In this document: piece after piece, positions 15,998-48,798 of the stretch | Layout: each line of letters begins with the position of its first letter | How positions within the stretch are numbered: the stretch's first letter is position 1 | Source of the DNA: Opitutia bacterium Tous-C1TDCM | Lineage (GTDB): Bacteria > Verrucomicrobiota > Verrucomicrobiia > Opitutales > Opitutaceae | Length of the DNA: 64,000 nt | Assembly (NCBI GenBank): GCA_002288455.1 | Contig: NEUS01000003.1 | Span: forward strand, 1-64,000 | Reading direction: 5' to 3' | Notes under the pieces: generated by a model | Databases searched by the model: none | Told to the model about the DNA's origin: nothing | The model's input: the letters and a program-made list of their open reading frames with translations, nothing else | Translations under genes and position numbers: made by a program

Positions 15998-16002
15998 GGA
16001 TA

Positions 16003-16118
16003 AATGCGGATTTCGGAATGCGGATTGCGGAGTGGGAAAGGCAGATGAGGAATGAAAAACGCGCCGTGGATCGGTCAGTTGTCCGGCACTCCGCATTCCG
16101 CACTCCGCATTCCGCAAT
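16003..16118. repeat. Heptad array R1: inverted arms of degenerate ANTGCGG units
   Basis: Left AATGCGG ATTTCGG AATGCGG ATTGCGG AGTGGGA (16003-16037); right CCGCATT CCGCACT CCGCATT CCGCAAT (16091-16118); core about 16038-16086. Confidence 0.85.
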
Positions 16119-16125
16119 TATCCCC

Positions 16126-22684: not shown

Positions 22685-22843
22685 GTGCGGATTGCGGAAT
22701 GCGGATTGCGGAGTGCCGGAATAATCCAAGCGCGGCCGGTCGGTTAAAGTGGGTCTACGCATTTCCGATTTTTGGATTTCTGGTTTTCCAATTCGCAATC
22801 CGCAATCCGCAATCCGCGATCCGCAATTGGCAGATCCGCAATT
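22684..22843. repeat. Heptad array R3: inverted arms filling a convergent gap
   Basis: Left AGTGCGG ATTGCGG AATGCGG ATTGCGG AGTGCCGG (22684-22719); right 22758-22842, about 12 units such as CCGATTT, TTGGATT, TCGCAAT, CCGCAAT x2, CCGCGAT, GGCAGAT, CCGCAAT. Confidence 0.9.
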
Positions 22844-24078: not shown

Positions 24079-25140
24079 ATGAATCCGTCCGCCCCGCGTT
24101 TTCCCGAAGTCCAACGTCGTCGTTTTCTGGCTGCCGGCGCGGTGGCGGCGGGGGCGGCGGCACTGGGGATGAAGGCGCAACCGGTGACGGCGGCGCCGGT
24201 GCTGGGGCAGGGGAAATTCCGTTTCCGGCAAGTGGTTGGTTGGGGGCAACTCGGCGAGGCGACGCCGGTGAACGATTGCCACGGGCTCGTGTGCGACCGC
24301 GAAGGGCACGTGATTTTGCTGACGAACCACGTCGCGAACAACGTGATCGTGTACGACCGCGCCGGGAAATTGGTGCACAAGTGGACGCGCGGTTGGGCCG
24401 GGGCGCACGGGTTGTCGATTGTGACCGAAGGCGCGCGCGAAGTGCTGTATGTGACGGACCTCGCGAGTTACCGGGTGATGAAGACGACGTTGGACGGCAC
24501 GGTGTTGAACGAATGGCGTTGGCCGGAGCACACGGGGAAGTACGAGAAGGAGAACCAGTACCGGCCGTCGTGGACCTTGCACCTGCCGAACGGGGAATTC
24601 TTCATTCTCGACGGGTACGGGCGGGATTTCATCGCGCACCACGCGGCGGACGGGACGTTTCGCCGGATCTTCGGCGGGGCGGAGGGCGGCATCGTGCATT
24701 GGGGGCCGCACGGCGGGATGGTGGATGCGCGGCGGCCGGAGGCGCCGACTTTGTTGATCGCGATGAGCGACCAGCAGCACCTGTTGCGGCTGGGGTTGGA
24801 CGGAGCGAAATTGGCGCAGACGGATTTGCCCGGCGGGAATCCGCGGCAGATCCGGGCGCACGGCGGACATTTCTACGTCGCGCACCTGGCGGACAATTGG
24901 CCGAAGGACCGGAGCAGCCGGGGCTTCGTCTCGATTTTGGATGCGGAGTTGCGCGTCGTTTCGAATCTGGCCGGAACGGCACCGGAGTACGGCGACGACG
25001 GCAAGTTGCGGCCGATGCGGAACGACGGCGGGATCTTCAACCACCCGCATGACGTGACGGTGGACCGGGACGGCTGCGTGTACGTGGCGCAGTATGCCTC
25101 GGGGAAGACGTATCCGCTGAAGTTCGAGCCGGCGGGATGA
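24079..25140 (+). CDS. NHL/6-bladed beta-propeller protein with Tat-like leader
   Basis: QRRRFLAAGAVAAGAAALG leader; repeated GxxxV(F/Y)VTD-like blades (VLYVTDLASYRVMK, HDVTVDRDGCVYVAQYASGK). Confidence 0.8.
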   Translation: MNPSAPRFPEVQRRRFLAAGAVAAGAAALGMKAQPVTAAPVLGQGKFRFRQVVGWGQLGEATPVNDCHGLVCDREGHVILLTNHVANNVIVYDRAGKLVHKWTRGWAGAHGLSIVTEGAREVLYVTDLASYRVMKTTLDGTVLNEWRWPEHTGKYEKENQYRPSWTLHLPNGEFFILDGYGRDFIAHHAADGTFRRIFGGAEGGIVHWGPHGGMVDARRPEAPTLLIAMSDQQHLLRLGLDGAKLAQTDLPGGNPRQIRAHGGHFYVAHLADNWPKDRSSRGFVSILDAELRVVSNLAGTAPEYGDDGKLRPMRNDGGIFNHPHDVTVDRDGCVYVAQYASGKTYPLKFEPAG

Positions 25141-25144
25141 GGGG

Positions 25145-25316
25145 AAACCGGAGTTCGGAGACCGGAGTGCGGAAACCGGAGACCGGAAATCGGATACCGG
25201 AAGACTGAGACCGGAAGGCAGAATGCTGAAGGAGGAGGCCGGGAATGGAGGATTCCGAGATTGGTCTCCGGTTTCCGAATTCCGAATTCCGGTTTTGGCA
25301 CTCCGCAATTGGCCGT
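25145..25316. repeat. Heptad array R4: longest array, inverted arms
   Basis: 14 consecutive heptads 25145-25242 (AAACCGG AGTTCGG AGACCGG AGTGCGG AAACCGG AGACCGG AAATCGG ATACCGG AAGACTG AGACCGG AAGGCAG AATGCTG AAGGAGG AGGCCGG); right arm 25255-25316 (CCGAGAT, CCGGTTT, CCGAATT x2, CCGGTTT, TGGCACT, CCGCAAT, TGGCCGT). Confidence 0.92.
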
Positions 25317-25348: not shown

Positions 25349-26002
25349 GTGTACCGACAGTGGGGGGTGCGTTTACCCCTTTGGATCTTGCGCTACTTGC
25401 ACCGCGGGAGGCTCTCGCGGAGCCGGATGCGGGGCACGTTTCTGCACAATTGGCTGGGGGACAAGATTCTCGACAAGTCGCTGTGGATCCCGACGCGGGC
25501 CTCGGTGGCGCGGGCTTGGCTGGTCGGCTGGCCGATCACGGTGATTCCGTTTTTGCCGGGGCAATCGATCTTCGCGTGCATCGCGGCGCTGTGCGTGCGG
25601 GGCAATCTGTTGCTGGCGATCGGGCTACAGTTTCTGTCGACGCCGTTGACGGCGCCGGTGCACCTGCCGGCGTGCTATCTCGTCGGCGAGGTGGTGCGCG
25701 GGGCGAGTCCGAAGGCAGTCTGGCGCGAGGTGCGGAGCAAGCCGGCGCATTTGCTGACGGGCAGTGCGGTGACGTCGTTGTACCTGGGCGCGGCGGTGAT
25801 CGGCATCGTGGTCGGCGCGGCGGGTTACGCGATTTTGCAGGGCACGTGGAAAGACAAACCGCGGGCCCGCCGCCGGAGCGACACGGCGCCGGGTTTCTTG
25901 GTCGGGGAAGGCGAGGCCGATTCCCGGCCGCCGGTCGACGGTTCGGTGCCGCCGGTGCCGGTGAAGCCGCCGTTGGGGCAGCACGATCACCCGGTGCCTT
26001 GA
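25349..26002 (+). CDS. DUF2062 domain-containing membrane protein
   Basis: VYRQWGVRLPLWILRYLHRGRLSRSRMRGTFLHNWLGDKILDKSLW...; the ATG at 25223 used by the ORF track lies inside array R4, so GTG 25349 is proposed. Confidence 0.7.
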   Translation: MYRQWGVRLPLWILRYLHRGRLSRSRMRGTFLHNWLGDKILDKSLWIPTRASVARAWLVGWPITVIPFLPGQSIFACIAALCVRGNLLLAIGLQFLSTPLTAPVHLPACYLVGEVVRGASPKAVWREVRSKPAHLLTGSAVTSLYLGAAVIGIVVGAAGYAILQGTWKDKPRARRRSDTAPGFLVGEGEADSRPPVDGSVPPVPVKPPLGQHDHPVP

Positions 26003-26040: not shown

Positions 26041-26066
26041 AAAAAAGGCGCCGAAAAATCGGCGCC
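26041..26066 (-). terminator. Rho-independent terminator for minus-strand genes
   Basis: minus strand: GGCGCCGA-TTTT-TCGGCGCC-TTTTTT. Confidence 0.8.
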
Positions 26067-26099
26067 TGAAGGAGCATCGCTCCGCCGCGCTCAGGCGAG

Positions 26100-26235
26100 G
26101 GCATGCAGTTGAGAGTTGAAAGTTGAAGGTTGAGAGAACGATCCGTCGAGAAACGGAAAATACAATCGCAGCCCCGGACCTGAAAAACCGAGCGGTTCTG
26201 CTCTCAACGCTCAACCAAGCTCGCTCAACTGCATG
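26100..26235. repeat. Heptad array R5: GTTGARR inverted arms with core
   Basis: GTTGAGA GTTGAAA GTTGAAG GTTGAGA (26108-26135), core GAACGATCCGT..., right TCTCAAC GCTCAAC CAAGCTC GCTCAAC (26202-26229); outer ends GCATGCAGTTGAG / CTCAACTGCATG. Confidence 0.88.
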
Positions 26236-27532: not shown

Positions 27533-27533
27533 G

Positions 27534-27621
27534 AAAATTGGGAAAACGGAAAATTGGAAAATCGGGAAATTGGAAAAGCGGGAAACGGGGAAAGCGGAAA
27601 ATTGGGAAACGGGAAACGGCG
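27534..27621. repeat. Octad array R6: 10 consecutive RAAANNGG units
   Basis: AAAATTGG GAAAACGG AAAATTGG AAAATCGG GAAATTGG AAAAGCGG GAAACGGG GAAAGCGG AAAATTGG GAAACGGG (27534-27613). Confidence 0.93.
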
Positions 27622-27622
27622 G

Positions 27623-40370: not shown

Positions 40371-40382
40371 TTGCGGATTTTT

Positions 40383-40481
40383 GACCACGGATGGCACGCA
40401 TGAACCCGGCTCAAGCCGGATTCATGCAGTCGAGAGTTGAAAGTTGAGAGTTGAGAGATCGATCCGTGACATCCGTGGTCC
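40383..40481. repeat. Composite repeat R7: GACCACGGATG inverted ends enclosing a hairpin and a GTTGARA heptad array
   Basis: GACCACGGATGGCACG ... CGTGACATCCGTGGTC; GTCGAGA GTTGAAA GTTGAGA GTTGAGA (40429-40456) then GATCGATCCGT. Confidence 0.85.
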
Positions 40482-40515
40482 TCTGCTTTTGTCCGAAAAC
40501 CCCGCTATCCCCGCC

Positions 40516-43482: not shown

Positions 43483-43587
43483 AAATCGGGAAAGCGCAAA
43501 ATCGGAAAAGCGGAAAACTCGACCCGCTGATTTCAGGCTGCATCGCCGTTTCCCGCTTTCCCAATTTCCCGCTTTTCCACTTTTCTG
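43482..43587. repeat. Octad array R8: inverted arms of RAAANNGG units
   Basis: AAAATCGG GAAAGCGC AAAATCGG AAAAGCGG (43482-43513); right CCGCTTTC CCAATTTC CCGCTTTT CCACTTTT (43553-43584). Confidence 0.92.
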
Positions 43588-43590
43588 TCG

Positions 43591-48631: not shown

Positions 48632-48658
48632 AATCCGGCGCGCCGGATTTCAGATATG
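48623..48658. repeat. 36-bp perfect palindrome overlapping the lpdA stop codon
   Basis: CATATCTGAAATCCGGCG|CGCCGGATTTCAGATATG. Confidence 0.95.
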
Positions 48659-48659
48659 A

Positions 48660-48798
48660 AGTTCGGGGTTCGGCGTTCGGGGTTCGGCGTTCGGAGTTTG
48701 GCGTTCGGAGTTGGGGCGCGGACGTTGGTTCTACGGCATTGCGCCCGAGCAGGCGGCGCGCTCTCCGGCTTTCAACTTTCAACTTCCGACTTTCAACT
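48660..48798. repeat. Heptad array R11: NGTTCGG left arm, AGTTGAA right arm
   Basis: AGTTCGG GGTTCGG CGTTCGG GGTTCGG CGTTCGG AGTTTGG CGTTCGG AGTTGGG (48660-48715); right CTTTCAA CTTTCAA CTTCCGA CTTTCAA (48769-48796). Confidence 0.93.

Follow-up and report, generated by a model that had tools for sequence, protein, structure and literature searches.

Heptad-built stem-loops at gene ends in an Opitutaceae genome: the R4 array and its genome-wide class

In the window analysed here, the whole stretch of 64,000 nt (64 kb) that opens contig NEUS01000003.1 of Opitutia bacterium Tous-C1TDCM, a run of 7-nt units begins at most 4 nt past the TGA stop codon of an NHL/SGL-like gene, with an inverted run of complementary units behind it. 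This element, designated R4, raises the question of what such an array is doing at the end of a gene, and whether it is peculiar to this site. The sequence-only reading that drew attention to it had described 14 gapless heptads at 25145-25242; we confirmed these coordinates, with 10 of the 14 units fitting ANNNCGG. Units 1-7 are AAACCGG, AGTTCGG, AGACCGG, AGTGCGG, AAACCGG, AGACCGG and AAATCGG, and units 8-14 are ATACCGG, AAGACTG, AGACCGG, AAGGCAG, AATGCTG, AAGGAGG and AGGCCGG; they hold GG, without GGG tracts. The complementary right arm that was also claimed is indeed present, in register over 25268-25309 (CCGGTTT, CCGAATT, CCGAATT, CCGGTTT, TGGCACT and CCGCAAT), and pairs with the left arm into a hairpin. 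The in-register ANNNCGG run at R4 is the longest of the window, where the best of the opposite strand has 5 units, and 60 first-order shuffles of the 64 kb gave runs of only 2-5 units versus the 10 at R4. TRF reported a period of 7/14 at 25143-25216.

R4 folds more stably than its composition predicts. The RNA fold reached -87.5 kcal/mol, as compared with -70.0 ± 4.0 in dinucleotide shuffles (z -4.4), and the single-strand DNA fold yielded a z of -4.5 against dinucleotide shuffles. Beyond the right arm, no stretch of at least five T was found, which agrees with the initial view that this is not a normal terminator; a canonical terminator function of R4 is not supported, because the element has no U-tract. 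Comparison with Rfam families returned no matches within the 64-kb window.

The start of the downstream DUF2062 gene was placed at a GTG because its relatives begin MRLPLW. A mechanical ORF from 25223 was rejected as the DUF2062 start, which would fall inside the R4 array. Other DUF2062 loci of the genus do not have the upstream neighbour of R4, and are therefore uninformative on its gain or loss.

Table 1. Coordinates of R4, its neighbours, sister elements in the window and sites of word replacement (window positions unless a locus is named; G007 is the related genome).
Feature	Position	Strand	Remarks
Upstream gene, NHL/SGL-like	24169-25140	+	ORF may begin earlier, at 24079; stop TGA 25138-25140
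R4 left arm, purine-rich	25143-25242	+	14 heptads from 25145, 10 of them ANNNCGG
R4 loop or degenerate centre	25243-25267
R4 right arm, pyrimidine-rich, inverted	25268-25309	+	in register from 25268
Downstream DUF2062 gene	25367-26002	+	start GTG 25367 inferred from relatives
GCGGATT family, two arms	15998-16125		gap between two minus-strand genes
GCGGATT family, two arms	22685-22843		gap between convergent genes
GTTGAGA family, two arms	26098-26235		gap between convergent genes
Octad GAAAATTG family, single arm	27533-27622		gap between two minus-strand genes
GTTGAGA array within CCACGGATG...CATCCGTGG inverted pair	40371-40488
Octad GAAAATCG family, two arms	43483-43590		family switch: GCGGATT hairpin in the G007 ortholog
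GTTCGGA left array and TTTCAAC right array	48655-48792		gap between convergent genes
Switch site, GAAAATCG octad versus GCGGATT	43483-43590; G007 L054 4461-4563	minus in G007	flanking genes nearly identical
Switch site, CGAAGAGG versus TAGCGAG in G007	L164 (contig C145) 1460-1568
Switch site, GCGGATT versus AGGGACC in G007	L164 (contig C145) 5032-5140
Switch site, TAAGCGG versus GGAAGACGC in G007	L164 (contig C145) 5444-5561

R4 had been treated as a single locus; it is instead one of hundreds of heptad arrays at gene ends in its genome. We worked with the genome that includes the window (G000; 4.15 Mb in 160 contigs, about 86% complete) and its nearest relative by protein search, the congeneric Opitutaceae bacterium D4_MAG_00009, which corresponds to G007 and was the sole relative that this search found in the named collection. 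A blast search with R4 alone produced 86 matches in its own genome; the search across many genomes, in which fewer candidates were scored per genome, gave 28 in G007 and 30 in G000. Motif-free autocorrelation of intergenic DNA from both genomes peaked at 7, 14 and 21 nt, and coding DNA showed no such peaks. We recovered 156 lag-7 arrays in 735 kb of G000 and 157 in 800 kb of G007, whereas the control lags yielded 2 and 9 (lag 11) and 2 and 1 (lag 13), respectively. Array densities in G000 are biased upward, because many of its contigs were chosen for R4 matches; the G007 stretches, which comprised the DNA syntenic with the window and a run of one large contig and were not chosen in this way, yielded similar figures. 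The heptad words include GTTGAGA, ACCGGAG, GCGGATT, GTTCGGA, TAAGCGG, TAGCGAG and GGTTTTG, together with octads such as GAAAATCG, and many arrays of the class carry one arm only.

Arrays of period 8-9 occur alongside the heptads, for example a two-armed element of a 9-nt-type family (ACCACAGAGACACAGAG) at L164 6336-6429. The GTTGAGA family often ends inward in GATCGATC-like sequence (26102-26136, 40423-40467 and 9754-9953 of L162, on G000 contig C110), a more fixed core than in other families.

The position of the arrays relative to genes is strongly biased. In the two genomes, arrays occupied 68 of 118 convergent gaps (58%), 115 of 405 tandem gaps (28%) and 11 of 151 divergent gaps (7%), with p = 5e-20 for convergent versus divergent gaps. 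In 86 of the 87 arm pairs the purine-rich arm came first and the pyrimidine-rich arm second; in tandem gaps, 72% of the sense purine arrays began no more than 15 nt from the stop codon of the upstream gene. The median fold z was -5.8 for two-armed convergent gaps and -3.7 for two-armed tandem gaps, as compared with 0.1 for array-free divergent gaps. Convergent gaps without arrays showed structure as well (-2.6), which indicates that hairpins are a general feature of gene ends and that arrays provide one of the ways to form them. Arms sharing a gap belonged to the same family in 29% of cases, versus 10% for random arms (permutation maximum 17%). Nevertheless, arms paired with their own partner no better than with same-family arms elsewhere (13/34), so selection on pairing at individual loci is not demonstrated beyond the sharing of a word.

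The enrichment between convergent genes could mean that the arrays serve as bidirectional terminators in place of canonical intrinsic ones, and U-tract terminators were rarer at convergent ends with an array (5/136) than at array-free ones (14/100). However, R4 has no U-tract, tandem ends with an array keep canonical terminators about as often as those without (11/115 and 35/290), and in many short co-directional gaps the element extends all the way to the following start codon, so that a new promoter would hardly fit. We thus consider this explanation unlikely. Separately, a canonical intrinsic terminator lies on the minus strand at 26045-26070 (GGCGCCGATTTTTCGGCGCC followed by TTTTTT), in the convergent gap that also holds a GTTGAGA element, indicating that arrays and normal terminators can coexist.

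The sequence of R4 is not fixed, as the ortholog in G007 shows. Place, word family and inverted arm are kept and the flanks align closely, but the units are reordered and their number differs. The left arm of either species pairs equally well with its own right arm and with that of the other species, indicating that pairing follows from the shared word. R4 thus keeps its family between the two genomes; at four other orthologous sites, conversely, both arms changed together to an unrelated word and pairing survived (Table 1). Three of these sites occupy successive gaps between co-directional genes in L164 and are two-armed hairpins. Flanks at the four sites are 92-98% identical, and own-arm duplexes (-36 to -71 kcal/mol) are more stable than cross-species ones (-23 to -32 kcal/mol), as expected if pairing is maintained. 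The four sites were picked by hand, without a fixed rule, from a list of 48 ortholog pairs, of which a dozen or so had two arms in each species, so that any rate of switching drawn from them is a rough estimate.

Length can also change in a single array: at L162 9754-9953, a GTTCGGA/TTTTGGG array adjoining a conserved GC-rich hairpin is several units longer in G007, an expansion or contraction between the species.

Two observations would fit mobile, REPIN-like elements that a RAYT/Y1 transposase moves: many sites have two inverted arms flanking a variable loop, and of the 46 two-armed cassettes, 18 match a second location along 80% or more of their length, with an identity of about 70-76%. Yet cassettes of the same family at different sites have their arm design in common and unrelated loops, for which reason we rejected recent copying of whole cassettes. 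Neither the GTAG nor the CGTC tag of REPs and REPINs occurs in 25141-25316. A RAYT/Y1 transposase is disfavoured as the mover, because match counts do not track arrays: G000 and G007, both array-rich, each have one distant Y1_Tnp match, and R4-type arrays are scarce or absent in genomes with 13-23 such matches. The evidence of tag, transposase and loops speaks against the explanation, and we regard it as highly improbable.

Within the phylum, four in-register CGGANNN units were present in 115 of 388 genomes, mostly at low counts and with a few rich genomes, and three GTTGARR units in 46 of 388, including the one-contig genome G029. The occurrence of arrays in other genomes, G029 among them, indicates that they are not an artefact of this metagenome-assembled genome. 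In 400 kb sampled from G029 the arrays were sparse (16) and their placement bias weak. A few genomes outside the family are also rich in CGGANNN heptads (for instance G120, G071, G202, G319 and G424). Plasmid records gave partial, weak matches only.

We tentatively favour the reading that R4 belongs to a class of heptad-built stem-loops at transcript ends, tolerant of slippage, which would act as RNA hairpins in the manner of REPs and are occasionally replaced whole. The purine-rich array just past a stop codon and the pyrimidine-rich inverted array of one word behind it would allow RNA from either strand to fold into a long hairpin. Slipped-strand replication would probably add, remove or reorder units, and the hairpin would be retained because pairing is possible between any two units from opposite arms. 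Its most likely role would be that of a 3' or intercistronic RNA hairpin slowing 3'-to-5' exonucleases, and it may also dampen read-through or antisense transcription between adjacent genes. From time to time a stem-loop would be replaced in its entirety by one of another word. Against a REP-like role stand the lack of an own-partner advantage in pairing, the many single-armed arrays and the sparse, weakly biased arrays of G029; moreover, the depletion in divergent gaps could be mere avoidance of promoters.

The strongest rival, which we hold to be a serious possibility, is that the arrays are neutral or selfish intergenic satellites generated and spread by polymerase slippage and template switching, which persist where they are harmless, mainly downstream of genes, with the hairpin being incidental. 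Degenerate units, the same 13/34 result with its want of locus-specific arm coevolution, the abundance of single-armed arrays, and a sporadic distribution in the phylum with very uneven counts all agree with it, and a slippage favouring 7 nt has already been proposed in print (PMC4679880, PMC4692102). Nevertheless, neither the fixed purine-then-pyrimidine order nor the strong excess folding is expected from independent neutral arrays, and nor is the joint change of word with pairing kept, unless the inverted arm is a fold-back copy.

Heptamer repeats occur in excess in many bacterial genomes, and neither a function nor an explanation for units of seven is agreed (PMC4692102); one published guess is that 7 nt may reflect the length of DNA contacted by the polymerase (PMC4679880, PMC4692102). 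The closest likeness is with the intergenic GGGAATC repeats of Xanthomonas (Rehm et al. 2015, PMC4692102), for which the authors found no function. These are also 7-nt intergenic units near stop codons, more frequent in convergent than in divergent gaps; they form 70-75 inverted pairs per genome and keep their place between species with variable length (PMC4692102), as does the class described here. However, they consist of one G-rich, G-quadruplex-forming word, whereas here one genome holds many words, mostly without G-tracts of three, and whole families are switched at orthologous sites, unlike in Xanthomonas. REPs and REPINs (tagged families, PMC3733652) are likewise hairpins in intergenic DNA, for which functions in mRNA stability and in termination have been proposed, but REPs are 20-40 bp long, tagged with GTAG/CGTC and conserved in sequence, whereas the present elements have tandem-heptad arms of many words and R4 is untagged. 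The TAACTGA heptamers of Beggiatoaceae, cyanobacteria and Bacteroidetes (PMC4679880) share the genome-wide occurrence of intergenic tandem heptamers, although they are one conserved word, mostly in direct repeats upstream of start codons. A four-heptad element is present in 49 copies in Geobacter metallireducens (PMC2700814).

A further parallel is the P6b loop of the Nostoc trnL group I intron, a stem of complementary 7-nt repeats, like R4, that varies in unit number (PMC4476775) and in which two repeat classes replace each other whole with the stem kept (PMC4476775). Such replacement with the structure preserved occurs at the four sister sites, whereas R4 retains its family; P6b is a single site within an intron, and the present class is intergenic, genome-wide and of many classes. 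One could speculate that an active process in Verrucomicrobiota rewrites intergenic stem-loops, changing both arms of an element at a fixed gene end to another 7-9 nt word of a shared repertoire, with order and pairing kept and the loop not copied, and that Nostoc P6b is another instance; we find this rather improbable.

As far as the literature searched shows, the number of families in a single genome, the genome-wide layout of hairpins at gene ends and the switching of families at several intergenic sites are new. Heptads in these bacteria are abundant, belong to many families, are tied to gene ends and paired in hairpins, with whole elements swapped from one close relative to the other. One testable idea, that a stem built of one word may slip freely with its structure intact, can thereby bring together the repeats of Xanthomonas and the intron stem of Nostoc, and ordinary RNA mapping could decide between function and neutrality of the heptad hairpins.
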